Shown piece after piece: positions 17,301 to 34,037 of a stretch of DNA of 64,000 nt. Under the pieces are notes generated by a model. That model saw only the letters and a program-made list of their open reading frames with translations. It was not told the origin of the DNA and did no database searches. Position 1 is the first letter of the stretch, and every line of letters begins with the position of its first letter. A program made the translations under genes and the position numbers. Source of the stretch: Desulfocapsaceae bacterium. Its GTDB lineage: Bacteria > Desulfobacterota > Desulfobulbia > Desulfobulbales > Desulfocapsaceae. The stretch lies in assembly GCA_030653035.1 (NCBI GenBank), contig JAUSAB010000075.1, positions 1-64,000 of the forward strand. Direction: 5' to 3'.

Positions 17301-18498
17301 ATTTGTTATCAGGGTTGTGGCAGGTCAGGTTGGCGCAAGTCACCTGTCCAGGGGTTGCGTTGCGGACATAAAGAGGGGCTCCCAGTCCACCGACTATGGC
17401 TGCCGTGTTGAAACCGGCCGGATCAAAGGCTACATCGACCAGGCTTCGGTTGTAGTTGGCCAGGAAGTGGGTCGGGGAGGTTGAAATGTTGGTGGAGTTG
17501 TGATTGTTGTTGAAGTGACATTCACTGCATTCGTATTTCAGGACACCAACATGGACGTTATGGGCATTTGTTGCCGGGGGATAGGCATGGCAGCCGTTAC
17601 AGCCCGCCTTAAAGCCTGTAGAGTGGGAATGACAGCCCGTGCAGTTAGCCCCTGTCAGACCGACATGCGGGCCAATCCCTGATCGGCTGCCGTCGTTACG
17701 AAAGTGGTTGGTCTGGTCATGGCAGACTTCGCAGATGCCATCCACATTCCCATCGCCATCGGCAAAGGAGTTAGTTCCGGTGGAGTTGAAAAATTTGACG
17801 GCTTTGACCCCGGATTTTGTGACCCCTTTTATTTCGGCCAGGTTAATGTTTGACCTGATTAATTTGCTGTAACTGATGCCCAAGGTGTTGTCGACAGCCG
17901 CATAGGTCAGGTCTATTGGCCCTTTTACCGTGAGGGTAGTGGCTGTGTTGCTGATGATTTTATAATTATAGTTGACCTGGGCAGTATTGGGTACAACCAC
18001 ATAGCCGGCATACTGGTCGACACTCCATATGGCGGTGGCAACCGTTATCGTTGTCGCATTTACTCCGGTTATTGTCCCGTTGTACGCATAGCTGGCCGCA
18101 CCGTATGTTTTGATCTGATCCTGAAGGTGCTGATTGTGACAGACCGAGCATTCAACGGTCCAGTTGCCGTATTTATTACTGGTGTTCAGGCTGGAATGGG
18201 TTTTGACATAGGGGGCCTGGGTCAAGTAATGAGGTGAATTCGGAGGTAAGGTGCCGCCTGTGTGGCAGCTCCAGCAGAGGCCGTTGGCAGTGGTATCGTC
18301 AAGGTCCTGAGAGGTATGAGTGAGCGGCGGCAGTAACTTGGGCTCAGATGAGGCCAGGTCATGACAGGAGCGACAGCCGATACCGCTGTTAGCATTGTGC
18401 GGCCAGTCCTCCGTGGCGTTGGCATTGATAAAGGGCAGGCATAATACGACACTGAGTAACTGGCAACCAATCAATTTGCCCCAGGTTTTTCGCCTCAC
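8356..18498 (-). CDS. Giant 21-haem cytochrome with adhesin-like extension
   Basis: A single open frame of ~3,380 residues. The GTG at 18498 has GGGAGGGGAG just upstream and gives a normal signal peptide (VRRKTWGKL ... INANA). Residues ~43-907 hold 21 haem motifs: 19 CXXCH and two CX4CH (CANLTCH, CSGVYCH), the latter as in Geobacter-type cytochromes. Then come Hydin/ASPM-like domains (~912-1143), a YVTN propeller (~1147-1470), three more Hydin-like domains (~1473-1830), a second YVTN propeller (~1837-2147), thrombospondin type-3 Ca-binding repeats (~2152-2297, DTDGDGKGDGCD), an FN3/LamG-like part, a LamG domain (~2584-2797), FN3-like repeats (PNQPINATPAAGDTN) and a final LamG ending at the stop. 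It is probably extracellular, combining electron transfer with binding to a surface, polymer or partner cell. No sorting signal is recognised. Confidence 0.9.
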   Translation of the reverse strand: MRRKTWGKLIGCQLLSVVLCLPFINANATEDWPHNANSGIGCRSCHDLASSEPKLLPPLTHTSQDLDDTTANGLCWSCHTGGTLPPNSPHYLTQAPYVKTHSSLNTSNKYGNWTVECSVCHNQHLQDQIKTYGAASYAYNGTITGVNATTITVATAIWSVDQYAGYVVVPNTAQVNYNYKIISNTATTLTVKGPIDLTYAAVDNTLGISYSKLIRSNINLAEIKGVTKSGVKAVKFFNSTGTNSFADGDGNVDGICEVCHDQTNHFRNDGSRSGIGPHVGLTGANCTGCHSHSTGFKAGCNGCHAYPPATNAHNVHVGVLKYECSECHFNNNHNSTNISTSPTHFLANYNRSLVDVAFDPAGFNTAAIVGGLGAPLYVRNATPGQVTCANLTCHNPDNKFTGKGVDNNYRSNNIPLWSSTIITCQNCHYDGESDNDGGSHDGHNGNFRGSATCVECHSEVNVIDPETKGTDSRHANKILNIDQADNDNYPIHVKATRSNTVITAVYKDGPLGTKKGGTCSGVYCHGEGLLSETGWAKNKDWGGMGWWGNCNGCHYDSSGFAYSNNKSHVIHTNYGAAGSYSYGPIAQCSECHDTSYSGHNNGKVDLLNSSDGTLANTRICDNCHGTAEGIAEAKANWNLNTTNDRHRISSCMYCHNGSTPANSKADKTGKYASAKDSFVTTGHGATSTFNATGNQGPSFVCTTCHDKNSQHIDKNGQSGIYTRLFPITDDGIAYTSEASQFCLDCHKLGQTANGVLGYDAKSEASIHSGAINNKYNTAASSVFPAYGDKARYATLPGYQCSACHDAHGTSKLAMIKETIDGKIGGNGNPVPVTGFEASDTDFRDMYDSSTDTDRVCSTCHSLLGGSPHPDTSHPGNNHHLNQAAGCAKCHAPHGQLTSSKACMECHNHKFSFANVGISSKIADQTLDFGSVAATAASFKTVTVKNYGSTPVTIGTMGLPVDYTQTFSQTFTQDLCSGQTLAPAATCTFGVRFQPPAIGAYNGTFIIPSNDSASPATVILKGTGTAAGPDITVSSISIRFNDSQVSTTYSQTITIINEGSSDLTSVTIDSAVPHLSAPFSIANNTCTPDKVLRPTTPSLNDSCTFDVLFTPTAKGIVSSSFKISSNDPDENPVVVTVDGTGIIPVYAYVPNGGTIIYKVNTFDKSVTDMTNITDSQSRSIAVKPDGSRFYVPAPTSFSPSVSLPSIPINPTGEYIRGYDPVTGYISSTFSGSYPSIVAISPNGAYLYFLANQWRQTGGSGSPIRYTNEYFLKIASTLNNTITKSIQITSVPERITVSPDSSEVYLSNKSYNTIDVYRTSSLQKSGTLSLAQPSGLAFSPDSSKAYVAITGNVAIIRTSDKTLIKNISIPEQPIDIVVSPDGAYVYTANTAGTYGAVSVIRTSDDIVINTIPLSLPYNGRVSNISITPDGNQLFINTNSGVKVISTATNTVTDTIAAITAASSYGDCIAARDPNVTSPNITITDSYSYNDDHFIDFGIQTINRASTAQTITVKNDGTANLIIGNLATANQSAQPFSIVSGNDNCSAKTLAAAASCTVQVKFTPSVKGTFTYKFLIPSNDPVENPTAVTLSGTANEPDITVTDDVSPANDLLMPFGNRVQGTKETRTITVKNDGAGYLEFSGITTTAPFSIQAGSTCLTYMTPSSSLWPNGTCQILVDFTPPALSPYNSTVNIQSNDPDKSLVTVAVSGQGTIAGPDISLIDIFTTTSPAITSLDFGYVEINAPPVYKDLWARNDGTANLTTGSFPLPAVLFTVNPDGLSNQSLAVGAITNYLRVYFDPISPGTFTAQLSIPTNDPDPDENPAKMSLTGIGYEKMAAFITNTYQIKPITITYAVDGSVTNTETSFNPYYYSLPFGVSATPSITYVTSVLSFYSSPNTAEYTPAPPKNHLLFLETSTRKRLATVAVGNNPKGVAAAPNGNNIYVANFDDNTVSVVSRATQTVVATVPTDRGPTGVDVTPNNNYVYVTNFTDNTVSVIRTTDNSVIKTIFVGTNPNGIAVSPNGAYVYVTNYGDNTVSVIQTSDNTVVATINVGTNPFGIAITPDGSRAYVTNYTDGSVSVIQTSDNSVIKTITGIIRPKGIASTPDSRLIYVVTNDTASTNGFVHVIQTIDNTEITIAKISESNTAFGKFITPIGNGVDGDGVPDAEDNCPTFYNPFQIDTDGDGKGDGCDPCPVDIDNDSDGDGICNGTSFLAPKTGINDNCPTVSNTSQVDTDGDGTGDACDVCPDDPNNDSDGDSICVGPRFNGPKTGANDNCATTSNTNQLDSDCNGVGDACSTPAYTYTPPASLNVSIQPFIANSTVSWIDTFNGENGYRIERQDGICGVDNTNPFVGLATIYELDDFSTGLDLTGWWPGAQVATTNVQGVVPASVSDTTGSSSVTWLNGAVQLHTVANGTGTAGYNYSSLAPKNFAGIIGDKDFDIQYDISLPNGIITPTPTKYFSYVRMDMYMPTTNSKTNDMFVARMRDGFVFSATVNGVNQSATFATTATSGTLRMVRSNRQLSGYYWDGTDWKLLLKHSQPLTADLTPTWTGFAQHGNRTEPTGQDITTIVDNFRFNTVGGLPVAALKMNLDESSWTATPGVVRDSAADSNHGTAFGGTTTTTDPERGVVGQFDGVDDYVEISGAGILQNVTDASFTFAAWAKPMAVPAGVDLVNWMDTRASFMSRPGQHTCLSYLPNKQFHFSMFSDASTQIKVPSFDSYEPNQWHHVVGVVDATGKTVSLYVDGQLKNSKPYTGIQLDYGTNSYYLGTASTSVTSFRWPFNGMVDDARIFDRALSATEVATLYGKKMQFTDSGLTAGTNYCYRVYPLKTDSCPNWQNQAAQISYTTPSNALPAQPINLIPADGATDVYALLPTLTASPFSDPDAGDTHYASQWQISTVSGGTAIYNSGTVAPATNHTVTTALTTNTTYYWRVRYQDNKGEWSPYSSDTSFVITNAAPNQPINATPAAGDTNISILPTLTASVFTDSNAGDTHQASQWLISTGSGAAFDAGIVYNSGTTAGSTSHTITSSLTLFSTVHYWKVRYQDSRGDWSSYSNETSFTTISNVPPNQPVNSKPANGATGVERKPVLTASAFVDPGDTHQASQWQIKNASVNVYDSGTVAGSTSHTVTTALAGSTLYYWKVRYQDSNGVWSNYSTETTFTTNNLISEWHLDEGSGATAADSFGSNTGTIRNGAVWDGTTAFLGKALIFNGSNNDVIWTYSAGIPANNFTLEAMVKATTIHEIDAESTISTAGTSGQRYLFGANQSGSDGGAGVSVGTNGISVYEHGGGYMPPLAVYSGSLGTVWNHIVVTYTNKQPRIYLNGVLARTGLTSPKTNVYAPTAFGGGAYGFFPGTIDEVRIYGNALSDAEILQRCKDLGKCAP

Positions 18499-18565
18499 GC
18501 TCTCCCCTCCCTGCAATAGACACTTTTCCGGCTTGGATTAGTCTATATTACATCTTAGTAACACA

Positions 18566-19075: not shown

Positions 19076-20452
19076 TTATAAGTCAGCTTTTTTCAATGCA
19101 TAATTTTTGATCTTGCTGTACAGGGTACCCCGGGCAATGCCGAGTGCTTCGGCGGCCTGCGACAAGTTCCAGAGTTTTTCTTCAAGGACTTTACGGATCA
19201 CTTCGGCTTCGATTTCGGGCAGGGAGCTGGAGCTTAGTTTGAGGGAGAAATTTTTTTCAGCGACGACAGCGTGCTGAAGTTCATCTGGGAAATGTTCGAG
19301 GCGGAGCTCGCTGCCGGGGCAGAAGACCACGGCGCGCTCGATGGCATTGGATAACTCGCGCACGTTGCCCGGCCAGCGGTAGGCACAGAGCCGGTTCATG
19401 GTGCTCTGGTCGACGGAGCTGATCTGCTTGCCGCTCTCACGGTTAAACTTGCGCAGAAAAAAGTTAACGAGCAACGGGATGTCGGATTGTCGCTCGCGTA
19501 GTGGCGGCGCGGTGAGGGTGACGACATTGAGCCGATAGAAGAGATCCTCGCGGAAGGTTTTTTCGCGCATTGCGGCCGCCAGGTCTTTGTTGGTGGCACA
19601 GATGATGCGGGTATCGACCTGAATGGTTTCAGTGCCGCCGACCCGGTGAAAGGAGCCCAGCTCGAGCACTCGCAGCAGGGCGACCTGGGTCTGCAGGGGG
19701 ATCTCACCAATTTCGTCGAGAAAGATGGTGCCGCCTTGGGCGAGCTCGAAGAAGCCGACTTTGCGAGCCCCCGCACCTGTGAAGGCGCCTTTTTCATGGC
19801 CAAACAGGGCGCTGTTGATGAGGCCCTCGGTGAGAGCGGCGCAGTTGACCGGGACAAATATCTGGTCGCGGCGGGCACTGCGGGCGTGAATGGCGGCGGC
19901 GATCAGTTCCTTGCCGGTGCCGCTTTCACCGCGAATCAGGACGGTGATGTTGGTCGGGCCGATGCGTCTGACCCCGTCGAACAGTTCGTACATGGCGGGG
20001 TCCTGGCCGATCAGTTGTTCAAAATGGGCCTCGCTTTGCCCTTCTTTGTTATTATCAAGCAGATGGCGATGCTGGAGGATTTTGCCCAGCTGCATCTGCA
20101 GCGTGGTGATATCAAACGGCTTGAGGATATAGTCATAGGCGCCCGCCTTCATCGCCCGGACCGCTTCATGGGCCGAATTGATACCGGTGAGAATCAAGAC
20201 GAAAATATCGGGATAGTGCCGGTGGATTTCCTGCAGCAGGGCGATGCCATCCATGCCGGGCATGATCAGATCGGTGAGGACGATGTCGGCGCGCTTGGTT
20301 TCAAGCATGCGCAGGGCGGTCGGGCCATCCACAGCGGTTTCAATCGAAAACCGTTGATCCTCCCCCATTTCTCGACAAAAAATATTGCGGTAGGCCTCTT
20401 CGTCATCCACAAAGAGAAGGCGGGTTTGTTTCTCAACCACGGTAATCTCCAT
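19076..20452 (-). CDS. Sigma-54-dependent response regulator (NtrC/AtoC type)
   Basis: A 458-residue protein in canonical order: receiver domain (~10-125, phospho-acceptor Asp61 in VLTDLIMPGMDG), AAA+ sigma-54 interaction domain (~150-380; Walker A GESGTGKE, GAFTGA loop that contacts sigma-54, GGTIFLDEIGEI), and a C-terminal Fis-type HTH (LSQAAEALGIARGTLYSKI). It overlaps the 3' end of the sensor kinase gene by 20 bp, so the two are co-translated. Lying next to the cytochrome cluster, it probably activates sigma-54 promoters there, but I could not find a convincing -24/-12 site by eye. Confidence 0.95.
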   Translation of the reverse strand: MEITVVEKQTRLLFVDDEEAYRNIFCREMGEDQRFSIETAVDGPTALRMLETKRADIVLTDLIMPGMDGIALLQEIHRHYPDIFVLILTGINSAHEAVRAMKAGAYDYILKPFDITTLQMQLGKILQHRHLLDNNKEGQSEAHFEQLIGQDPAMYELFDGVRRIGPTNITVLIRGESGTGKELIAAAIHARSARRDQIFVPVNCAALTEGLINSALFGHEKGAFTGAGARKVGFFELAQGGTIFLDEIGEIPLQTQVALLRVLELGSFHRVGGTETIQVDTRIICATNKDLAAAMREKTFREDLFYRLNVVTLTAPPLRERQSDIPLLVNFFLRKFNRESGKQISSVDQSTMNRLCAYRWPGNVRELSNAIERAVVFCPGSELRLEHFPDELQHAVVAEKNFSLKLSSSSLPEIEAEVIRKVLEEKLWNLSQAAEALGIARGTLYSKIKNYALKKADL

Positions 20453-22499
20453 TCTCGGTTTGGAACAGGTTTGCTGAGAACGGGGTCACTACGTTCGGGT
20501 CGCGTGGTTTTGCTCTCAGATCAAGGGGGATGCACAGGGTGAAGGTGGTTCCTGCGCCGAGCTTGCTGGCAACATCGATGATACCCTTATGGCGGGTGAC
20601 AATGTCGTAGACAATACTCAAGCCGAGACCGGTGCCGACACCGATCTCTTTGGTGGTGAAAAAAGGTTCAAATATGTGTTCGAGCTTGTCGGGAGGGATG
20701 CCGCTGCCGTTATCGCTGATGGCAATGTAAATTTTCTTGTCTTCGGCCCAGCTCGTAATCTCGATTTTCCCCTGTTCGGCAATGGCCTGGGTGGCGTTGA
20801 TGAACAGATTGAGGAACACCTGGTTCATCTGTGCGGCACAGCAGTAACACCGGGGAATGTCACCGTAATTGCGCACGACTTCGATCTTGGTGTGCAACTC
20901 ATGACGAATGAGCGCAAGGGTACTGTCGATACATTGATGCAGATCGACGAGTTCGTGCCGCGTGACCTCCTTGCACGAAAAGTTACGCAGACCCTGTACG
21001 GTTTGACTGATGCGGGTGGTGCCGTCGCGGCATTCCGCCAGCATGACCGGCATTTCCAGTAGTATCTTATCGATGCCGAAATCCTGCCGCCCTTTCAGGC
21101 AAGCGGCAGCCAGCTCGTTATCGCCGCGGCGTTCGATCACTCCTCCCTGCAAGGCGAAAAAATGGCTCAGACGCTCCAAGTAACGCTCAAATGTACCCAA
21201 ATTATGACTAATAAAACCGATTGGATTGTTGATATCGTGGGCGATGCCGGCAGCAAGTTGACCGAGACAGGCCATCTTATCCTGATGCAGAATAGTGGCA
21301 TGTGTTTCCTGCAGTTCCCGATTCACCTCTTCCAGCGCCACCGTGCGCTTTGCCACCCGCTCTTCCAGTGTTTGGTTGAGAAGCTGCAGTTTCAATTCAG
21401 CCAGGCGCCGGTGGTCGATCTCTGCTTCCAGTTGACGGTTGGTTAGCGTGACATTAACGACTTCATCGTTGAGACGTTGCCGGGTGTCAGCCAAGCGCCG
21501 GTCCATTCTGCCCAGCACATGATAGGCGAAGAAAATCAGCACCAGACCCAGGCCGGCACTCACCAGAATAATCGGTACGATGAATGCTTTGAAGGAGGTT
21601 GTCTGCTGCGTGATGTTATGCAACACATGGAAGCCGCCAATTAACTGGTCTGAAAAGTCGAACAGTTGAAAGCCCTTGATGCGATAGACCTGTTGATCGA
21701 TGACAATGTTGCTGTATGTTTCCTCCGTAGCAAGGCGATCTACGGATAACAGCTTGATTTTATCCAACTTACTGGTATTGGGCAGGGTTTGATAGGCAAT
21801 CACCTGGTCACTGAATAAATCCCAGTTATTTAAGCGGCCGGCGTGTTCCCGGGCAAGTTCCCACCGTTCACGATCAAGCTGGTGTTTATCAAGGGTGATC
21901 AGAAAATCTTTTTTGACAATCGACTGCAGTTGTTTAAGGACGTAATCGACTTCGATCCCCAGCTCGATATAGCCGATTAACTTATCTTCCACCCGCCACG
22001 GCAAAACACCCCGATAGGTCAGCATGCCAAATCTGCCGAGTTCCAGGCCAAAGGCAAATTTCTGGCTGTTGGCTGCCTTGAAAAAGGTGTTGCGGGCCAC
22101 TGGATCGTCAAATTTATCGGGGTTGTGGACCCGGAGCAAGGTCGTACCTGTCAGGGTATGATAGTAAAGGTGCGAGATTCCGTGGAACTGGAAGAGCTGA
22201 TTCAACAACGGCAGGGAGTGCTGATAGAGGGTGTCACGGTCGTTAGCTATCATTGCCTGGCGCAGCTGAGTGTCGCGCGAGATCTCGATCATAATATTGA
22301 GCAGCAACGTTTCCCGATGGTCCTTGGATACATTGATGTAGGCCTGGGTAACCTCATAGTCGTGGCGCATATTGATCAGGTTCTGGTCGGCGCGGATGTG
22401 ATAAGCGCTGTAGATAAAGGTACAGAAAAGAACCACAATGGTAAGAGACAAAGGTATCAGTATCCTGCGACGAATCGGATCTTCAGAGTTATGCTTCAT
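20433..22499 (-). CDS. Membrane sensor histidine kinase, partner of the NtrC-type regulator
   Basis: A 688-residue kinase. An N-terminal membrane segment (~14-33) precedes a large periplasmic sensor region (~35-290, Cache-like, with PWRVEDKLIGYIELGIEVDY), a second membrane segment (IVPIILVSAGLGLVLIFFAY), a long coiled coil, HisKA with phospho-His in AAGIAHDINNPIGF, and HATPase with N box (NLFINATQAIAEQG), ISDNGSGIPP and GTGLGLSIVYDIV. The ATG at 22499 (MKHNSEDPIRRR) puts a normal basic N-terminus before the first membrane segment; the longer TTG frame from 22568 is less likely. The ligand is unknown. It forms an operon with the overlapping regulator gene. Confidence 0.92.
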   Translation of the reverse strand: MKHNSEDPIRRRILIPLSLTIVVLFCTFIYSAYHIRADQNLINMRHDYEVTQAYINVSKDHRETLLLNIMIEISRDTQLRQAMIANDRDTLYQHSLPLLNQLFQFHGISHLYYHTLTGTTLLRVHNPDKFDDPVARNTFFKAANSQKFAFGLELGRFGMLTYRGVLPWRVEDKLIGYIELGIEVDYVLKQLQSIVKKDFLITLDKHQLDRERWELAREHAGRLNNWDLFSDQVIAYQTLPNTSKLDKIKLLSVDRLATEETYSNIVIDQQVYRIKGFQLFDFSDQLIGGFHVLHNITQQTTSFKAFIVPIILVSAGLGLVLIFFAYHVLGRMDRRLADTRQRLNDEVVNVTLTNRQLEAEIDHRRLAELKLQLLNQTLEERVAKRTVALEEVNRELQETHATILHQDKMACLGQLAAGIAHDINNPIGFISHNLGTFERYLERLSHFFALQGGVIERRGDNELAAACLKGRQDFGIDKILLEMPVMLAECRDGTTRISQTVQGLRNFSCKEVTRHELVDLHQCIDSTLALIRHELHTKIEVVRNYGDIPRCYCCAAQMNQVFLNLFINATQAIAEQGKIEITSWAEDKKIYIAISDNGSGIPPDKLEHIFEPFFTTKEIGVGTGLGLSIVYDIVTRHKGIIDVASKLGAGTTFTLCIPLDLRAKPRDPNVVTPFSANLFQTENGDYRG

Positions 22500-22699
22500 A
22501 TCGCAAGGCAGTCTGGGTGAAATTGTCAAGTTTTTGATAGGGTGAGAGGTGATACCTGAATATTGCAAACAAGCGACAAAATGATATTAAAAAGATTGTA
22601 TCATCAAAAGATTAACGATGGAATTAAGTAAAAAAGGAGATTACCTTTTTATGAACGTAAAGAATAACAAACGTAGAGCCCGTGTGTCACCCAAAAAAT

Positions 22700-24359: not shown

Positions 24360-25349
24360 TTACATCTTGTGGCAATTATTACAATAGAGAGCCATGTTAC
24401 TGTTGTCATGGTTCAACAAATTTTGTGTGTTGCCGGCATGGGGATTATGGCAGCTGGCGCAGGTGAATTCCTTGTTCGGATTAAATGAATCTTTGGCATT
24501 TCGTACCGGGTGCCCTTTACCAACGAAACCTGCAATGACATGGCTGCCTGATGCCTTGTCCTCGTGGCAATTGATACAGAGATCAGTGGTCTGCATCCGC
24601 AGAAGCGCAGGCCATTCAGATCCGTGCGGGTTGTGACACATGGTGCAATGGCCGACCGCTGTGGGACCATGCATGATTTTTTTGCTTTTCCATCCTTTGA
24701 CTTCAGCGTTGTGGCAGGGATAACACACCTTATCGTCCGGCTTTGGCACTGTGTACTTCCGCTCTCCACGCAGCACTTCATGGCAGGTGAAACAGGTTCC
24801 TTGCGCAGCTGGCTTATGGACAAAGGTGTATTGGGTGTATTTTTTTTTGTGACAAACGTAACATGTTGATTTTTCAGGATTTTCTGGCCGTAGACTGCTG
24901 AGGGTGGGGTCCATGTCATGGCAGCCGGAGCAGCTTTTTTCATTGTTAATAACGTGAAAGAAGTATCGATTAAAGTTAGCAGGGGGTTCCCGAAAACTGG
25001 GGAAGAGGTCAGAGCGGAAGAAAATTTTCATTTCTTTTTGAGCAATGACCTTTCCCTGTTTCAGGCCGAGTAGTTCAATCGTATTTATTCCCTTGCTCAG
25101 GGTTACACCGAAGCAGACGTTGGTACTGTCGGGACGAACAGATATTTCCGTAGGTTTGTTCTCTCCAATGACGACGCGGATACCATCGAGAACCTGTTTC
25201 TCCACAGTAAGGACAATACTGAATTGTTCATTATCAACAAAGGAGTTGTCAGGAGGAAATTGTATGGAAATTCCTGTGCCGGCCCAACAGTCAATTGTGC
25301 AGAAAAACACTATTGGCAGCGCCGTAAGGAGAATATGTTGTTGTTTCAT
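24360..25349 (-). CDS. Octahaem cytochrome with N-terminal beta-sandwich domain
   Basis: A 329-residue exported protein. After the signal peptide (to ~residue 24) comes an Ig-like/cohesin-like region (~25-110) without haem motifs, then eight CXXCH motifs (CSGCH, CYVCH, CFTCH, CYPCH, CTMCH, CINCH, CASCH, CNNCH). Most are in the doubled-CXXCH arrangement, with CHNPHGSEWPALL and CHNPHAGNTQNLL repeats. The start ATG overlaps the stop of the TlpA-like gene (ATGA), so it is translationally coupled as the last gene of the chain 28353-24360. Confidence 0.9.
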   Translation of the reverse strand: MKQQHILLTALPIVFFCTIDCWAGTGISIQFPPDNSFVDNEQFSIVLTVEKQVLDGIRVVIGENKPTEISVRPDSTNVCFGVTLSKGINTIELLGLKQGKVIAQKEMKIFFRSDLFPSFREPPANFNRYFFHVINNEKSCSGCHDMDPTLSSLRPENPEKSTCYVCHKKKYTQYTFVHKPAAQGTCFTCHEVLRGERKYTVPKPDDKVCYPCHNAEVKGWKSKKIMHGPTAVGHCTMCHNPHGSEWPALLRMQTTDLCINCHEDKASGSHVIAGFVGKGHPVRNAKDSFNPNKEFTCASCHNPHAGNTQNLLNHDNSNMALYCNNCHKM

Positions 25350-26479
25350 TTCCGGTTCAGAAGTTGTTTAAGGGCATTTTTATAACTCGTTGCCGCTTGT
25401 TCGAGGTTGTTTTGATCCTCAAACATTTTTCCCCGGTACACATTAATCTGGAAGTCCAAAGGGTTCATTTCTTCAGCTTTGGCAAAAAGCTCAGCGGCCT
25501 TTTTTGTGTCGCCTTCCTTACCGGTCAGATAGCCGAGATAATAGTAGCATGGCATATAGGCCTCGTCTGCCTTTATCGCTTTTTCAAACATGGTCCTTGC
25601 AGCGGCACCGGAACTTTCCTCTGTCAGAATAAGGCCCATTTTGCACAGGGCTGCAGCATTGTCCGGTTTGCGGGTTAAGACTTGTTGGAACTGTTCTTTG
25701 GCTTGTGCAAGATCACCCTGGTCCTTGTAATAGGTGCCAAGGCTGAGATACGGCAAGATGAAGTTCGGGTCGGCCGTTATGGCCTTTTTGAATGACATTT
25801 CGGCGGTTTGAGCCGTACGTTTTGAACTCATGGCCTTGACACCCATATTAAAAGCGCGTACAGAATTTTTGTCTGGCTGATACCCGGTTATTTTCGCTGC
25901 CTCGGTCGGGGCTGACTTGCCCTCGATGGCAGCGGTAACGAAGTTAAGCATGTCCACAGTTCCTACCAGTGGGAAACCGTCCATTTCAAAGACGATTTTT
26001 CTGTCCTTGTCAAGGATGACCGTGGTAGGCACGGCAATAACCCCATAGTCGTGAAACGTGACAAGACCATGGTCAACCAGATTAGGAAAGGAGATTTGCA
26101 GGCGTTCGGTGACCCCCTTAATATCTGTCAGAGCCTGGGCATCAATGGTTTGTCTTTCCACATTGATACCGATAACAGAAAGCCCCTGGCTTTTATATTT
26201 CTGATGGAGTTTTTCCATCTCTTTGAGGGCCTTTTCCGACTGCCTGCTCCATGAGGCCCAAAAGAGGACCACGGTTAGCTTGTTTCCTTTGAGCGTTGAA
26301 AATCCCTGTTTGGTTCCGCTGTAATTCTGAAGTGTAAAATCCGGAGCTTCCGCTCCCACCCCGAGGGTTTGCAGGGCGGGAACGGAAATGCTGGTTTGCA
26401 GCAGGGCGATGGTCATTACAAGAATCATCAGACATGTCTTTTGTCTGAACGGAAAGCATATTATTGGCTTCACAGTCAC
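25346..26479 (-). CDS. TlpA/redoxin-like protein fused to TPRs, active-site Cys absent
   Basis: A 377-residue exported protein. Residues ~40-190 form a TlpA/AhpC-type thioredoxin fold (APDFTLQNYSG, VVLFWASW, the cis-Pro region VIAVPTTVILDKDRK). Residues ~205-375 carry about five TPRs. Where TlpA has WCxxC this protein has WSRQS, so it cannot act as a thiol-disulfide oxidoreductase; a binding or chaperone role is more likely. The GTG start directly abuts the TAG of the upstream TPR gene, and its stop overlaps the next cytochrome start. The context suggests a role in assembling or holding the multihaem proteins. Confidence 0.88.
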   Translation of the reverse strand: MTVKPIICFPFRQKTCLMILVMTIALLQTSISVPALQTLGVGAEAPDFTLQNYSGTKQGFSTLKGNKLTVVLFWASWSRQSEKALKEMEKLHQKYKSQGLSVIGINVERQTIDAQALTDIKGVTERLQISFPNLVDHGLVTFHDYGVIAVPTTVILDKDRKIVFEMDGFPLVGTVDMLNFVTAAIEGKSAPTEAAKITGYQPDKNSVRAFNMGVKAMSSKRTAQTAEMSFKKAITADPNFILPYLSLGTYYKDQGDLAQAKEQFQQVLTRKPDNAAALCKMGLILTEESSGAAARTMFEKAIKADEAYMPCYYYLGYLTGKEGDTKKAAELFAKAEEMNPLDFQINVYRGKMFEDQNNLEQAATSYKNALKQLLNRK

Positions 26480-26980
26480 CTACCTTGTTTCTTGTCCGTG
26501 TGAGCTGATGCCCTGTTTGAACTGCGTAAGGGCCCCTTTGGTGTCTCCAAGCTTTTCATAGATGAGGCCAAGTTCATAATGAGTCCGTGCCGGATTAGGA
26601 TTCAGCTCCAGCGCATCTTTCAAAATGGATTCGGCTGTCTTGAGATCCCCAGTCTGTGCCAGGATAATCCCTTTCCCGGTTTTGGCGCCACTGGAGCGAG
26701 GCTGCAGCTCCAGTGCCTTGTCAAAGGACGCCATTGCCTGTTGCGAATCGCCCTTTTCAAGGAGCAGGTCGCCAAGAATGACATGCGCTTTTGCTTGCGA
26801 TGGGTTCTCTGTTATACACAGCTTGATGGTAGCAATCCCCTCGTCAAGTTTTCCTTCATGGGCCAAAGTAGAGGCATTTTTTTCACACGATGCCTCATTG
26901 CCGGGTGCCGATGAAGCCAGCACCCAGCCCGGTCCACTTATAAGAGTAATCAATAATAAGTAGAGCGGTTTAATGTTCAT
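26480..26980 (-). CDS. Exported TPR protein
   Basis: A 166-residue protein with a signal peptide (cleavage near VLASSA) and about three tetratricopeptide repeats (residues ~40-155; AKAHVILGDLLLEKGDSQQA, ARTHYELGLIYEKLGDTKGA). The start overlaps the stop of the 15-haem cytochrome gene as ATGA. TPR proteins mediate protein-protein contacts. Sandwiched between cytochrome genes, it probably helps apocytochrome handling or complex assembly in the periplasm, as inferred from position only. Confidence 0.85.
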   Translation of the reverse strand: MNIKPLYLLLITLISGPGWVLASSAPGNEASCEKNASTLAHEGKLDEGIATIKLCITENPSQAKAHVILGDLLLEKGDSQQAMASFDKALELQPRSSGAKTGKGIILAQTGDLKTAESILKDALELNPNPARTHYELGLIYEKLGDTKGALTQFKQGISSHGQETR

Positions 26981-28353
26981 CTGTTTTTCACCTTTTCATC
27001 TCTGTCATATTTGAATTCCTGATGACAACCTGGCAGGCAGGCGCCGCCGTTTTTACTCTTAACAAACCCAACCGGCATCTGATAGGCCCCAAAGGCGACC
27101 TTATCGGTAATGTGTTTTGGATTTTTAGTTGCATGTGCATCGTGGCATGCCTTGCAGGTACGACCCTTGGGGGTTTTATTGACGTGTACAAAGTGAAGGT
27201 TTTGGTCACCGTTGCGGAAGCCCGTCAAAGTGGTTGTCTTCGCGTCTTTTACCAAGGTGTCGTTATGACACATGAAGCAGAGTTTGAAGTTGTCAGGGTT
27301 GTATGGAGCATAAAATTTTTGTAAAAAATTGCCTCTGAGTATGCGGGCACTTTGTGATCCATGAGTATTATGGCAGGCAGAACAGTCTTTTTCCAAAATA
27401 GGACCGTGATGACTTCCATTTTTCTCCAGCAGTATTTTCATGTTTGACACCGAGGTCCCATCTGCATGTTTATACTCTTTGTCATGACAGGAAAGGCAGA
27501 GATCCATGGGCGCCTTATCAAGCTGTTGAGGAAATGAAGAAACGTGGGGGTTATGACAGGCCAGACAGCCTTTGTCTGTAGTAAGACCGCCGTGTTTTAC
27601 CGTAACCTTGGCGATTTCATCTTTCTTGTCGGTATGACAGGTAAAGCAAAGGTCCTGGGTGCTCTCGGCCGGCAGATTGAATTTAAAATTGCTGCTGTGG
27701 GGGCTGTGGCATTGGATGCAACCATCTGTAACAGGGCCGTGAGCAAATTTCTTGTCGGCAAACTCATCCTTTTTGTCGGAGTGGCAGGAAAAGCAGACAT
27801 CGTTGCCTTTGGCCATCAGCAATTTGGGTGAGTCAGAAGAGTGGGGTGAATGGCAGACACTGCAACCGTCAGCCACGACCGGTCCATGGACAAATTTACC
27901 ACCAGCGATGGCTTTGTCATGGCACAGGAAACAGAGAGCGGGGCCCGCACCTTTGAGCTGAAACTTATTGGCGGATTGATGAGGATCGTGGCATCCTGTG
28001 CATTTTCCCTCTTTAACCGGTTTATGGACAACGGAACCGTTGTTTAATTTATCATGGCACTCATAACAGAGGGCTTCCGCACTTTTGATCGGCTGAAATG
28101 CATGCTGATCTTTTTTATCTTGCTTATGGCAGAAGGCACAGTCGCCTGAGGCCACAGGTCCGTGGACAAATTTATCTTTCCCCATGGTAGGGTGGCAGTC
28201 GGAGGTGGTACATGATTGCCCGGCCTTTATCGACACATGACTGGAATCCTTGGCACATGCCTCCAGTGCAAAAAGACTTATAACGCAAATAAAGGAACAT
28301 ACCGTGAGCAATGTTGACAATGGGTGTTTTTTCTTTTCTGTTCTTGTGTCCAT
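26977..28353 (-). CDS. 15-haem c-type cytochrome (doubled CXXCH type)
   Basis: A 458-residue exported protein with 13 CXXCH motifs, one CX4CH near the N-terminus (CTTSDCH) and one CX3CH near the C-terminus (CLPGCH). The repeating pattern FVHGPV ... CxxCHSPHSS and CHDPHQSANKFQL identifies tandem doubled-CXXCH modules with distal His ligands (VHGPV, KHGGL). AAAGGAAA lies before the ATG. It is the first gene of the coupled chain to 24360. A truncated copy of its first ~145 residues lies immediately upstream. It is likely an electron carrier across the periplasm or at the outer membrane. Confidence 0.92.
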   Translation of the reverse strand: MDTRTEKKKHPLSTLLTVCSFICVISLFALEACAKDSSHVSIKAGQSCTTSDCHPTMGKDKFVHGPVASGDCAFCHKQDKKDQHAFQPIKSAEALCYECHDKLNNGSVVHKPVKEGKCTGCHDPHQSANKFQLKGAGPALCFLCHDKAIAGGKFVHGPVVADGCSVCHSPHSSDSPKLLMAKGNDVCFSCHSDKKDEFADKKFAHGPVTDGCIQCHSPHSSNFKFNLPAESTQDLCFTCHTDKKDEIAKVTVKHGGLTTDKGCLACHNPHVSSFPQQLDKAPMDLCLSCHDKEYKHADGTSVSNMKILLEKNGSHHGPILEKDCSACHNTHGSQSARILRGNFLQKFYAPYNPDNFKLCFMCHNDTLVKDAKTTTLTGFRNGDQNLHFVHVNKTPKGRTCKACHDAHATKNPKHITDKVAFGAYQMPVGFVKSKNGGACLPGCHQEFKYDRDEKVKNR

Positions 28354-28475: not shown

Positions 28476-28913
28476 TTAGCCCCCTGACCTGCCTTTAGGA
28501 ACGTCTTTGAGTTGGAACTGTTTGGCTGATTGATGAGGATCGTGGCAGTCTGTACATTTGCCTATTACTGCCGGTGTATGCCCAATAAAGCCGGTGTTTG
28601 ATTTATCATGACACTCGTAACAGAGTGCTTCACTGTTGTTGATCGGCTGAAATGTATGCTGGTCTTTTTTGTCCTGCTTATGGCAGAAAGTACAGTCTCC
28701 TGAGGCCACAGGCCCGTGCACAAATTTATCTTTTCCCATGGTAGGGTGGCATTCGGAGGTTACACAGGACTGCCCGGCTTCTATCGACACGTTGCTGGAT
28801 TTATCATTTGCCGCATAACCCTCCAGTGTAAAAATACTTACAATGCAGATGAAAGGGCATAGCTTGAACAATGTTAACAATGGCTGTTTTTTCTTTTTTC
28901 TTCTTGCGTCCAA
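28476..28913 (-). pseudogene. Truncated tandem copy of the 15-haem cytochrome
   Basis: A 145-codon frame closely similar to the N-terminal third of the downstream gene (shared blocks PTMGKDKFVHGPVASGDC, CHKQDKKDQH, CHDPHQSA). It keeps four haem motifs (CVTSECH, CTFCH, CYECH, CTDCH), then stops after FQLKDVPKGRSGG where the full protein continues into CFLCH. The start codon is TTG where the full copy has ATG. The upstream flank is also duplicated (GTTTGTCGTGAA). It may be a dead fragment or a small tetrahaem protein; the lost ATG favours decay. Confidence 0.65.
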
Positions 28914-29058: not shown

Positions 29059-30774
29059 TTAGCCACTGTTATTATGTGTGTGAGAATGACAGACAAGGGT
29101 GCATCTGGGTGGTGAAGGGGTATAGGAAATCACCCCACTATTGGGGGTGACAACGTTTGTATTAAAGTTAATCAGCCTGTTGTAGCCTGACGAGCTATGG
29201 GAGTCATGGCAGGTCGCGCAAGATGTATGTGCGCCTGGACTTGTAATATGATTTTTATGTTTAAATACCGGACCAGCCACAACCGTAAGGATGACGTTTC
29301 GGTTATGACATTTATAGCAGAGAGCATAGGTCGCGGCACTTTCGTTCGCCCAGTCACTGGTGTCATAGTTTGCCACGAGCAGGTGTTTGTTGACGGAACC
29401 GTGCGGCCCATGAGCGCCTGCAGTAGGGTTGTCAGAGCCATGGCAGTCGGTGCAGTAGAGGATACTGGTGTTGGTATAGGGCGCCAGCAGGCTTGGCACA
29501 GCGGCCCCACTCGAGCCGTTGATTTCCACCCGATGAGAAGAGGGGTTGCCGGGCAAAAATTCAAGTCGAGTGTTCACCTGGGGGAACTTGCGGGTGATTT
29601 CAGGGGTTGTTATCACATTATTGGGGGCATCGGCATGACACTTGAAACAGATTTCATAGAGGTTTGCGGCATTCGTGGTCTTTGCTCCAGCGGCGGTAAT
29701 CCCTTGTACGCCAATATTTCTCCCTGAAACCAGAGGTGCTGCCGCCGTGGTATTCTTCACCTGGTGAGGATTGTGACAGTCTTCGCACTCCACGTGCTTG
29801 GTCACAGATGCCGTGAAATCCTCGTGGGCGTCATGTACTCCAAGGTAGCTAGCAACAGGATGGCGATAAACTTTAGTCAGTTCGTTTGCAATATTGCTCT
29901 GGATTGCAACCTGACCACTATGGCAGGCAAGGCAGTTATCCTCTTCATTGACCTGTTTTAATAGCCGTTGATGTCTGCCCGCAGTATGGGGCCGATGGCA
30001 GTTGCCACATGCGTTGTAGGCCACAGTGGTGGAGGCGCTTGGCAACGGATTAACGCCGGTGCCGCTATATGTACGGGTAGATGTGGCATGGATGCTGGCC
30101 GCCCAGCCGCTTTTGGTGTGACACGTGATGCAGAGCGCTGAACCTTGATTGGACTTTACCAAAAATTTCCCAAAGGCGTCGTCATGAGGATCATGACAGG
30201 CTGTGCACTGGAGTTGACCGGTACTGTCAAGTTTAACCGGCGAGATGCTTGTAAATGCAATCGTTGAAGCAGTAACAAGCTCAGTGTTTCCCCCGGTAAT
30301 GCTGCTTTGATAGTCAAAGGAAACCGGGTGGTCATCGGACAGGTCTGTGCCGAGAGAAGTGCTCCGGCCGCCAAGAGTGGTGGCGCCGCTGAAAGGTATC
30401 GGTGACGACTCAGAAAAAAGAACTGCTCCTAAAGCGATGGTCCCGTCATGACAACTCAGACAGAGTTTTGAGGCGCCGGTGGGCTGTCCATTCGACCCAA
30501 CATGTCCAGCCGGGGCCATCATGGTAGTGCTGGTATAAGGAATGTAGGTGCTGGTTTGAGCCGAGCGACTCCAGAGGTAGGGGATATCCGCGCGGGCGTT
30601 GTGGGGAGTATGGCAGAAGACGCAAACCTGGTCAAGTCCTGACGCTTTGATTGCCTGACCGCCGGAAGAAGAAAGATCGTGCTTGCTGAAACGAATGCTG
30701 TTTCCATGGACGAGTTCTCCGCTACCAAGCAGGAGTGCTGTGACTACAATAAAAATGCTTGTTGTTTTATTCAT
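29059..30774 (-). CDS. 12-haem cytochrome of the porin-cytochrome block
   Basis: A 571-residue exported protein with 11 CXXCH motifs (CVFCH, CLSCH, CTACH, CITCH, CGNCH, CLACH, CEDCH, CFKCH, CTDCH, CYKCH, CATCH) and a C-terminal CX3CH (CTLVCH). The N-terminal FSKHDLSSSG, CHTPHNARADIPYLWSR and LCLSCHDGTIALG match the 4- and 5-haem relatives. The start overlaps the NHL lipoprotein stop by 4 bp (ATGA), and that gene follows the beta-barrel gene by 9 bp, so the three form an operon. It probably carries electrons through or next to the barrel. Confidence 0.92.
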   Translation of the reverse strand: MNKTTSIFIVVTALLLGSGELVHGNSIRFSKHDLSSSGGQAIKASGLDQVCVFCHTPHNARADIPYLWSRSAQTSTYIPYTSTTMMAPAGHVGSNGQPTGASKLCLSCHDGTIALGAVLFSESSPIPFSGATTLGGRSTSLGTDLSDDHPVSFDYQSSITGGNTELVTASTIAFTSISPVKLDSTGQLQCTACHDPHDDAFGKFLVKSNQGSALCITCHTKSGWAASIHATSTRTYSGTGVNPLPSASTTVAYNACGNCHRPHTAGRHQRLLKQVNEEDNCLACHSGQVAIQSNIANELTKVYRHPVASYLGVHDAHEDFTASVTKHVECEDCHNPHQVKNTTAAAPLVSGRNIGVQGITAAGAKTTNAANLYEICFKCHADAPNNVITTPEITRKFPQVNTRLEFLPGNPSSHRVEINGSSGAAVPSLLAPYTNTSILYCTDCHGSDNPTAGAHGPHGSVNKHLLVANYDTSDWANESAATYALCYKCHNRNVILTVVAGPVFKHKNHITSPGAHTSCATCHDSHSSSGYNRLINFNTNVVTPNSGVISYTPSPPRCTLVCHSHTHNNSG

Positions 30775-31850
30775 CGCTGCGCCTCTTTCTGTTTGAGATA
30801 CTGAAAGATTTGAACGCGTTTATTATAGGAATCCGCCACATAAATTTTGTCATTTTTATCAATCCAGATACCAGCCGGCATCCAGAATTCTCCGAGTTCC
30901 TCGCCTAATCTGCCAAAATCCATCAGCAGCCGCCCTGTTTTGTTAAAGATCTGGATGTTGTCAAAAATGGCGTCCACCACATAGATATTGCCGTCACTGT
31001 CGCTGGCGATACCGCGTGGTCTGGCAAAATGACCCGGACTATCTCCGGCGCTGCCAAATGTCCACTGAAATACCCCTTCTGTGGAAAAAACTTGAATGCG
31101 GAAATTAAGGGCATCGGTAATAAGGAGAGTCCCCTCCCCGGTAACAGTGATATTGGTAGGGTTGTTGAACTGTCCTGCCCCCACACCCTTGGCGCCAAAC
31201 GTTCCCTTCAGTTTGTGGCTGTCGAGATCAAACCTGAAAACCTGAGCCAGTTTTGTATCGACAACGAGGAGCTCATTGCTTGCTTGATTGACAGCAACTC
31301 CGGTAGGCCGTTGAAAAAGGCCGTTGCCGATGGTGAGGGGAGAGTCGTCCCCTGCGCCGTTAAACACCTTGATAATGTTATCCTGAGAGTCGGAGACATA
31401 GATTCGTCCACCCTTATCAACGGCAATGCCGATGGGGGAGGTCATTGGATAATCGTCATCGGGGAAAGTGGAAAATTCCCCGGCGGTTGCATCAAAGACC
31501 TGGATTCTTCGCTGAAGGGTGTCAACGGCGTAGAGCCTGCCTGCACTATCTACCGTCACTCCATAGGGTGCAAGGGTATCATCTTCTTTACCGATAACAT
31601 AATTCCAAAAGAGCATCAAGGCACTTGGGGTAATTTTAAAATCTTCCGGCTTGGAAATACTGCTGATAAAGCGGATCCTTGGGGTTTCCTCGCCTTTGGG
31701 CCATACCAGGTCGACCGGTGGCGCTACTGGTTCAAGATTAGGTGACATACAGCCGAAAAGCCCGAAAAGAACCGCGAGCGACAAAGCAGTGAAGGCAGCA
31801 CTGAGAGGGGACCGCGTGTTGCCCATTTTTTTTATTAATCTCTTTATCAT
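30771..31850 (-). CDS. NHL-repeat lipoprotein of the porin-cytochrome block
   Basis: A 359-residue protein with a lipobox (LFGLFGC) giving a lipid-modified Cys at ~34, then about six NHL blades (YGVTVDSAGRLYAVDTLQRR, IGIAVDKGGRIYVSDSQDN, PRGIASDSDGNIYVVDA). The start has no strong Shine-Dalgarno, but lies 9 bp after the barrel stop and is probably read by coupling; an internal MGNTRS start is possible. It is paralogous to the NHL lipoprotein at 35714. It may be a scaffold docking cytochromes to the outer membrane. Confidence 0.88.
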   Translation of the reverse strand: MIKRLIKKMGNTRSPLSAAFTALSLAVLFGLFGCMSPNLEPVAPPVDLVWPKGEETPRIRFISSISKPEDFKITPSALMLFWNYVIGKEDDTLAPYGVTVDSAGRLYAVDTLQRRIQVFDATAGEFSTFPDDDYPMTSPIGIAVDKGGRIYVSDSQDNIIKVFNGAGDDSPLTIGNGLFQRPTGVAVNQASNELLVVDTKLAQVFRFDLDSHKLKGTFGAKGVGAGQFNNPTNITVTGEGTLLITDALNFRIQVFSTEGVFQWTFGSAGDSPGHFARPRGIASDSDGNIYVVDAIFDNIQIFNKTGRLLMDFGRLGEELGEFWMPAGIWIDKNDKIYVADSYNKRVQIFQYLKQKEAQR

Positions 31851-31859
31851 CTATAGAGC

Positions 31860-34037
31860 CTACCACATAGCGCGGATGATTTCCACGCGAGCGAGTTGTT
31901 CTGTTCGCTGGGAGTCGGTCTTTATGTAGTTTTGGTCGGTGAATTGATAACTGAGACGTGTTGTCCAGATGCGGTAGCGGAACTCAAGGCCGGCCTTGAG
32001 GCCGGTATTTTCCGTTTCTTCGAAATCGCTAATGTTCTTGTCGTAAAAACCCTCAAGGCGAAGTTTTGACCATCTATTCAGCAGCCAGTCACAGGTGGCA
32101 ATCCCGCCGTAAAAATCATTGGTCTCGTCGTGGTCTTTATAGTCTGTTTGGCCAAGATATCCCTTAACCGATAAGTAAATTGGTAACTGGGGTCTGTAGG
32201 ACAGCGTTTCTTGTATCTCGCTCCGGGTATAGGCTGGAGAGGATAGGCGGTTGTTGTCCTCATAACTGAGAGAAGTGCTTGACCAACCGATATCATAGCG
32301 GATATTGGTCCTTTGAATGGTGTCGTCGATCAGGTTTTGCGGCGTCTCACCAGAGAGAATGTTCTGCGTTATCCTAGTGATATTATAAGAAAAATACCAG
32401 TCATGCCAGAGATCGAAATTGAATCCGTAATTTTCGGTAAGCAAGGCGTCGTTATATGCTGCATCTCGCTGATAACGGTAGGTGACTGCAACGATTTGTC
32501 CATCAGTTATCGAACCGAAAGGCACGCGGTGTATCCGGACATAGCCGTTAATCTTTTCAACTGTGTAGTCAATGTTTTCAATATAAACGATGGTCCCGGA
32601 ATTGTTGGAGACAATGATGGAATCAAGGTTGACGTTATAATGATTCAGATAAATTTCATTATTAAGGCTGAGAAGATGTGTCTCATTGGTAACCAGGGCC
32701 TCGTTTGAGGTAAATCCGCTGCGGTCAGTGTAAAGATAGTCCCAGCCGCTATTCAAACCTAGCGTAGTCCAGGAAAGGGGACGGCTGTAGGAGAAATTGA
32801 GGAAACCGTCCCCTGTGGTCTCCTTTCCGTCGAAGTAATTGTTCCAACTTCCCCTGCTGCCGACATTGGTGGTCAGATTTTCATAAAGCAGGTGTGTCAG
32901 CCCGGCATCAAGTGTTGTCATGTCAGAACTGAAATCACCAGATTCCTGCCGGGTATGGGAAGCTGAATAGTTTGACTGCAAATTGGGGGTATGGCGCCAG
33001 CCCAGGTGTTCTCTGAAATTGAGGTTTTGCGTATCGAACCAGCCTGATTCCTGGGTACTGTAGGTCATGGCCGAGTCCAAGGTGACTCTATTGTCATCAG
33101 TGACGCGATAGTTGTTAAACAGATTATTATTAAAAGTTTTTATCTGGTTCGTGAGATTATTGCTGCTTGTCTTATCACCACCGCTGCTCCTCTTGTCATC
33201 ACTATAGGTGGAGGTCAGGTGAGTGTTACTTTTTTCGGTCTGATGTTCGGATGACAGGTTGAAGTCATCATGGGTATCATTTGATGTGTAAAAACCGGTT
33301 TGTTCATCCTCTGTGTGGTTATATCCAGCCGTGCTGGGCAGGATCTTGTATTTGAGTTGTCCATTGGCGCCATAGGAGTTGGAAATGGACTCGGTGTTAC
33401 CTGAGAAGGCAGCCCATTCAGATGTCTCCTGACGATTGCCAAAAATGTTGAGTGTATAGGGCTTGGCCTCCAAAAATGTCGCTGACATGGAATAATCCGG
33501 GGCAAAGGAGCTGGTTCTAGCCGTTTCACCTTGAATCGGTTCCTCTATTGATTGGATCAATTCCGGTCCAATCATCAGCGAGTATTTCATAAGAGCAGGA
33601 CTGTAAACCCATCCTGAAGTTTGGATGTTTAATTGCTCTTTAAATTTGTGGCTGGTGTCCGTGTCCGTTATACCGTTATGTGTCTGTGAGTTGTTTTTAA
33701 ATTCATAAGTGAGTTGCCCACCCACGGTAGGCCTTTTAATAAAATAATATTGTTTTTGCTGGCGGCTTTGTTTGCCGTTTTCAGGCTGTTTTGTCAGCCA
33801 TCGTTGCAATATTGTCTTGACCGGCAATGCCTCCTGGACAACAGGTTCAACTGGTTTTGAACTTTTTTCTTCGTTCAATTCCTCAATGTTTATGCTGTCG
33901 ATAGTCGGGGCAACAGGCTCAACTGATTCCGAACTTTTTTCTTCGGCGTAGATGAGCGCTGGATCGACAAAAAGAAGAAACAGTGATGCAAAGGTAAGCA
34001 GGGAAAGCGTCAATATATTAAAGCAAAAGTGTTTCAT
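31860..34037 (-). CDS. Predicted outer-membrane beta-barrel (porin of a cytochrome conduit)
   Basis: A 725-residue protein with a signal peptide (to ~residue 31), a short Glu/Pro-rich linker with a repeated EEKSSxxVEPV motif, then ~600 residues of alternating-hydrophobicity strands rich in Tyr, Trp, Asn, Ser and Thr, ending in an aromatic residue (RAMW). Many strand pairs read like LTYEFKNNSQTH and LRLEGFYDKNISDFEE. It has no haem motif. In Desulfobacterota such barrels with adjacent multihaem cytochromes form porin-cytochrome conduits; strand count and pore size cannot be judged here. It is the first gene of the operon running to 29059. Confidence 0.82.
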   Translation of the reverse strand: MKHFCFNILTLSLLTFASLFLLFVDPALIYAEEKSSESVEPVAPTIDSINIEELNEEKSSKPVEPVVQEALPVKTILQRWLTKQPENGKQSRQQKQYYFIKRPTVGGQLTYEFKNNSQTHNGITDTDTSHKFKEQLNIQTSGWVYSPALMKYSLMIGPELIQSIEEPIQGETARTSSFAPDYSMSATFLEAKPYTLNIFGNRQETSEWAAFSGNTESISNSYGANGQLKYKILPSTAGYNHTEDEQTGFYTSNDTHDDFNLSSEHQTEKSNTHLTSTYSDDKRSSGGDKTSSNNLTNQIKTFNNNLFNNYRVTDDNRVTLDSAMTYSTQESGWFDTQNLNFREHLGWRHTPNLQSNYSASHTRQESGDFSSDMTTLDAGLTHLLYENLTTNVGSRGSWNNYFDGKETTGDGFLNFSYSRPLSWTTLGLNSGWDYLYTDRSGFTSNEALVTNETHLLSLNNEIYLNHYNVNLDSIIVSNNSGTIVYIENIDYTVEKINGYVRIHRVPFGSITDGQIVAVTYRYQRDAAYNDALLTENYGFNFDLWHDWYFSYNITRITQNILSGETPQNLIDDTIQRTNIRYDIGWSSTSLSYEDNNRLSSPAYTRSEIQETLSYRPQLPIYLSVKGYLGQTDYKDHDETNDFYGGIATCDWLLNRWSKLRLEGFYDKNISDFEETENTGLKAGLEFRYRIWTTRLSYQFTDQNYIKTDSQRTEQLARVEIIRAMW

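Follow-up and report, generated by a model that had tools for sequence, protein, structure and literature searches.

The window, a stretch of 64,000 nucleotides from a Desulfocapsaceae bacterium, carries a cluster of multiheme cytochrome genes on its reverse strand. Embedded in this cluster is a gene for a TlpA-like protein fused to tetratricopeptide repeats (TPRs), hereafter called TlpA-TPR. The genes and the features of TlpA-TPR are as follows.

24360..25349, reverse strand: 8-heme cytochrome (329 aa); its start overlaps the stop of the TlpA-TPR gene
25346..26479, reverse strand: TlpA-TPR protein (377 aa), with a GTG start, an N-terminal hydrophobic signal or anchor, a Cys-less TlpA-like domain and five TPRs
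25352..25870, reverse strand: TPR region of TlpA-TPR (aa 204-376), five helix pairs
25991..26359, reverse strand: TlpA/ResA-like (AhpC-TSA) domain (aa 41-163), from Pfam and the ResA alignment
26027..26029, reverse strand: P151, the predicted cis-proline, from the ResA alignment and invariance in 52 of 52 relatives
26237..26248, reverse strand: S78-R-Q-S81 in place of CxxC (serine codons AGC and TCG)
26480..26980, reverse strand: exported companion TPR protein (166 aa); its gene shares 4 nt with the 13-heme gene, and its position is conserved in relatives
26977..28353, reverse strand: 13-heme cytochrome (458 aa, 13 CXXCH motifs), related to MtrA/DmsE-type cytochromes
28476..28913, reverse strand: short 3-heme protein (145 aa), closely resembling the N-terminus of the 13-heme cytochrome
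29059..30774, reverse strand: 11-heme cytochrome (571 aa)
30771..31850, reverse strand: NHL-repeat (beta-propeller) protein (359 aa)
31860..34037, reverse strand: exported protein (725 aa), probably an outer-membrane beta-barrel

Successive genes in the set 13-heme, TPR, TlpA-TPR and 8-heme either overlap or abut, all within 4 nt, which bears out an earlier sequence-only reading that placed the TlpA-like gene in a cytochrome operon. Their order is the same in relatives from the genus and the family. Upstream of this four-gene unit lie the genes for the 3-heme protein, the 11-heme cytochrome, the NHL protein and the probable barrel. The 13-heme cytochrome matches chain A of 6r2q (2.8e-15), an entry that we take to be MtrCAB, though the molecule label in the structure search differs. 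The barrel candidate has no match in Pfam or the PDB.

Other genes in the window are also of interest. The 3-heme gene is either a truncated duplicate or a short functional cytochrome; short 3-heme genes (144-186 aa) occupy the same place in genus relatives and are absent in four family relatives (G161, G145, G182 and G171). Positions 8356-18516 (reverse strand) encode a giant exported protein of 3386 residues; its N-terminal third contains 19 CXXCH motifs and is followed by HYDIN-like Ig domains, a YNCE/lactonase-type beta-propeller, TSP3 repeats and Laminin-G domains. It looks like a very large cell-surface multiheme cytochrome. Between the giant gene and the conduit cluster, at 19076-22568 (reverse strand), we recognized by eye an NtrC-type response regulator and a sensor histidine kinase, possible regulators of the cytochrome cluster.

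The TlpA-like domain has lost the defining feature of its fold family. Residues 41-163 match Pfam AhpC-TSA (8.5e-20) and the solved ResA structure 4nmu (1.1e-16), and several Pfam TPR families match the C-terminal half of the protein. In alignments to solved ResA chains, S78 and S81 fall on both catalytic cysteines and the VPTT motif on the cis-Pro loop. The site reads W-S-R-Q-S (W77, S78, S81), and the whole domain contains zero cysteines. The alignment of P151 to the ResA loop suggests that the cis-Pro loop is kept opposite the former active site. Two earlier claims, that both redox cysteines are missing and that the fold motifs including the cis-Pro loop are nevertheless kept, thus hold up: the open reading frame is real, the AhpC-TSA match is clear, the serines sit at the ResA cysteine positions and P151 is invariant. 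The codons AGC and TCG make S78 and S81 true serines and rule out selenocysteine, a UGA stop or a frameshift at the site. A peroxiredoxin is likewise ruled out because the peroxidatic cysteine is missing from the cysteine-free domain. The hydrophobic N-terminus predicts an exported, periplasmic protein.

We modelled TlpA-TPR with AlphaFold from three input sequences. In the full-length model the TPR half has pLDDT values mostly of 80-93 and the TlpA half falls below 50; for the TlpA domain alone the mean pLDDT is 43.5. Because confidence is low for the TlpA half, the model lends no support to a peptide groove.

The Cys-less site is widespread and conserved. Searched with the single TlpA-TPR sequence, genome contigs yielded only two close relatives. 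When 395 genomes of the phylum were searched with a profile, the Cys-less family turned up in at least 26 genomes and at least 19 of 246 genera, and these counts are lower bounds since the best four candidates per genome were scored. Both cysteines are absent from all 13 Desulfobulbales homologues (32-80% identical), in which F73 and W74 are also invariant; W77, S78, S81 and P151 are identical across 14 homologues, down to 32% identity. Among 40 main-type sequences from across the phylum, position 78 is serine in 37 and asparagine in 3, position 81 is serine in 38 and alanine in 2, and P151 is present in all. A sister clade of 12 sequences mostly has glutamine at position 78, yet retains S81 in 11 members and the proline throughout (52 of 52 for both groups together); none of the 12 has CxxC.

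The sequence-only reading had named close homologues with CxxC as the sign of a one-off mutation. None was found among about 60 relatives across the phylum, a search whose profile was made from Cys-less members, so that a CxxC TlpA-TPR fusion might escape detection. Together with the 14 conserved homologues, this result rules out a one-off mutation or sequencing error. Conservation at the site is far above chance, and the alignments indicate that cysteine loss is ancient and that the site is under selection. The invariant site and the absence of CxxC strongly support a conserved non-catalytic TlpA-TPR; the earlier reading had likewise proposed a non-catalytic version. Could redox chemistry persist by another route, using serine, a bound metal or heme, or a cysteine elsewhere? 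The strict conservation of the S-x-x-S pair would fit. However, 34 of 40 family members have no cysteine anywhere in the domain, homologues do not share the cysteines found in the TPR region of the window protein, and TlpA-TPR has no CXXCH motif. We consider this explanation very improbable.

The CxxC TlpA proteins of the same genomes form one clade, apart from 60 Cys-less sequences (support 0.99). Both classes of serine codon are used for S81 (AGC in 12 sequences, TCN in 27). Within the genus, dN/dS is 0.13 for the TlpA domain compared with 0.20 for the TPR part. Low dN/dS, a serine held across codon classes and a conserved site all argue that the TlpA domain is constrained, not decaying.

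Five loci (L153, L154, L155, L156 and L160) encode a further, more distant Cys-less TlpA-TPR type with, for example, FWGGD..KK at the site; this group occurs in other Desulfobulbales, mostly near 14-heme cytochromes that are about 570-605 aa long. Eight loci (L055, L056, L058, L059, L061, L062, L064 and L065) have two Cys-less paralogues in tandem, the first of which adjoins a 13-heme gene and carries Q-x-[RK]-S in place of S-x-R-S. In genome G064, a second, divergent copy (L079:6709-7806, reverse strand; FWSTWSRKS) lies about 3 kb away from the first; it is convergent with two 6-heme genes and does not adjoin a 13-heme gene.

Which gene is the partner of TlpA-TPR? Close full-length orthologues of the 13-heme cytochrome (E<=1e-140) occur in 14 of 253 Desulfobulbales genomes, and 13 of these are exactly the genomes with TlpA-TPR. 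The fourteenth is G251, where the contig stops about 280 bases past the TPR gene. Conversely, barrel homologues that lack an adjacent 13-heme gene (in G141, G069, G014 and at the G251 barrel locus) have no TlpA-TPR nearby, which rules out the barrel as the co-inherited partner. At the G172 barrel locus, which has a 12-heme gene, the Cys-less TlpA-TPR is short and divergent. The match with the 13-heme genomes and the absence from barrel-only loci indicate that TlpA-TPR tracks the 13-heme cytochrome. Related genomes rich in multiheme cytochromes have no TlpA-TPR, which counts against the holdase reading discussed below.

The link extends beyond Desulfobulbales, where Cys-less TlpA-TPR genes again adjoin 13-heme genes and often occur as two paralogues with a 4/5-heme gene between them. 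An open reading frame with at least four CXXCH motifs lies within 1.5 kb of 13 of 28 Cys-less loci, as against 2 of 30 CxxC TlpA loci (Fisher p=7e-4). When the span is widened to stretches of up to 17 kb, such a frame is present at 19 of 30 Cys-less loci and in 3 of 20 random stretches, drawn partly from the same genomes (p=1e-3). Both p values are optimistic because loci from related genomes are not independent. Neighbourhood and co-occurrence therefore back the proposed cytochrome link, though 11 of the 30 phylum-wide loci have no multiheme gene nearby.

Those 11 loci suggest a different view, in which TlpA-TPR belongs to a broad family of periplasmic adaptors with many clients, cytochromes being one use and S-x-x-S a helix-cap relic without a role in peptide binding. 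The family is phylum-wide, and some members adjoin glycerol-metabolism (glycerophosphate), transketolase or pseudouridine-synthase (tRNA-modification) genes. Moreover, serine at a helix start is a common cap, and the sister clade mostly replaces S78 with glutamine. Within Desulfobulbales, however, the gene is essentially always linked to one cytochrome gene, and only a few positions are invariant, the site residues included. On balance, we find a general adaptor improbable.

A second view accepts the cytochrome link but assigns TlpA-TPR no role in maturation. The TPR superhelix would clamp both neighbouring cytochromes, 13-heme and 8-heme, and the companion TPR protein into a mature periplasmic conduit, with the TlpA fold as a docking surface. 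TPRs serve as scaffolds as often as they serve as chaperones. The fixed gene order in Desulfobulbales, co-inheritance with the 13-heme gene and, in other families, a position flanking 13-heme and 4/5-heme genes would all be expected of such a scaffold. Against it, the TlpA domain is under tighter constraint than the TPRs, its invariant positions include the former active site and TlpA/ResA-type domains are classically maturation factors. A pure scaffold is unlikely, in our estimate, but is a more serious contender than the general adaptor.

We prefer a third reading, to which we assign a probability of about one half. From its sequence and genomic context, TlpA-TPR may be a periplasmic pseudo-oxidoreductase whose role towards the neighbouring MtrA-like 13-heme cytochrome is that of a non-catalytic holdase or assembly factor. 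Cysteine loss across the whole lineage, the added repeats and the 13-heme neighbour suggest that it probably holds or assembles the cytochrome rather than performing chemistry. The genome encodes System II, in the form of ResB and CcsA-type proteins, as well as a regular TlpA with CxxC (FFATWCPPC), so that thiol chemistry is available elsewhere. These components favour the holdase or assembly reading over the scaffold and the general adaptor, as do the precedents of thiol-less CcmG (PMC3601427) and CnoX (PMC8129009).

The earlier idea that TlpA-TPR may bind apocytochromes, or their CXXCH segments in particular, is an inference. We envisage that the TlpA groove and the TPR superhelix would bind the multiheme cytochrome as a polypeptide chain. 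TlpA-TPR and its 166-aa TPR partner could jointly hold this chain open for heme attachment by System II; alternatively, the two proteins might dock the cytochrome with the 8-heme and outer-membrane parts. Removal of the thiols would allow a chain with 26 heme-binding cysteines to be held without mixed disulfides, and cysteine reduction would be left to the separate CxxC TlpA. The S-x-x-S pair could, on the other hand, have been retained merely as a helix cap, which would count against the holdase reading.

A broader proposal is more tentative, and we would put it at somewhat less than even odds. The phylum-wide thiol-free family may include dedicated assembly chaperones for 13- to 14-heme MtrA-like conduit cytochromes. 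They would represent, in nature, what has been proposed for CcmG, a holdase role independent of thiols; gene duplication would have split binding from reduction. Little is understood of how bacteria fold and heme-load proteins that carry at least 13 covalent hemes, and TlpA-TPR is a candidate assembly factor for extracellular electron conduits. A literature search for TlpA, TPR and multiheme, with subscription papers mostly outside its scope, found no description of a Cys-less TlpA-TPR associated with multiheme cytochromes.

How does TlpA-TPR compare with known systems? The cluster resembles the MtrCAB and OetABI conduits in that an MtrA-related cytochrome has a predicted barrel and 8-13-heme proteins in its neighbourhood; it differs in its predicted barrel, which has no PDB match. 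Neither thioredoxin nor tetratricopeptide turned up when the text of the OetABI paper was searched. Among Cys-less members of the PDI family, PDILT has an S-K-Q-S site and is without oxidase or reductase activity (PMC3500226). However, PDILT, ERp27 and ERp29 are eukaryotic ER proteins without TPRs, and the parallel is one of analogy only.

The layout of TlpA-TPR, a thioredoxin-fold N-terminal domain followed by C-terminal TPRs, is like that of CnoX (YbbN). CnoX is a holdase, and the E. coli protein has an S-x-x-C site and cannot reduce insulin (PMC8129009). Whereas CnoX has a thioredoxin domain proper, the TlpA-TPR domain matches AhpC-TSA, Redoxin and ResA. CnoX works with GroEL and DnaK and has kept its client-trapping cysteines; TlpA-TPR has a cysteine-free domain, and its hydrophobic N-terminal export sequence speaks against a cytoplasmic location. 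TlpA-TPR can be described as a TlpA-fold pseudo-enzyme, and its CnoX-like layout is most likely convergent.

CcmI and NrfG are periplasmic TPR proteins proposed to present apocytochromes (PMC3601427). TlpA-TPR shares periplasmic TPRs with them and has a weak match to TPR_CcmH_CycH (34.7 bits, under the family cut-off of 42). Unlike TlpA-TPR, they carry no thioredoxin-like domain, and the present genome uses System II.

The nearest relatives by fold are ResA, TlpA and CcmG (DsbE). By sequence TlpA-TPR has the same fold and the predicted cis-Pro loop, and like them it is exported and linked to c-type cytochromes. However, it lacks the CxxC that defines TlpA oxidoreductases; its family forms a separate clade in which both cysteines are replaced, nearly always by serine, and the domain is fused to TPRs. 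Thiol-less CcmG is reported to bind apocytochrome, and some cytochrome still forms when serine replaces one or both cysteines of CcmG (reviewed in PMC3601427). Such mutants have been used to argue that CcmG also acts as a thiol-independent holdase. In TlpA-TPR, evolution appears to have made the same change, kept it strictly and added TPRs, next to one particular multiheme cytochrome. The result is a natural, testable system in which the holding of apocytochromes could be told apart from the reduction of their cysteines.
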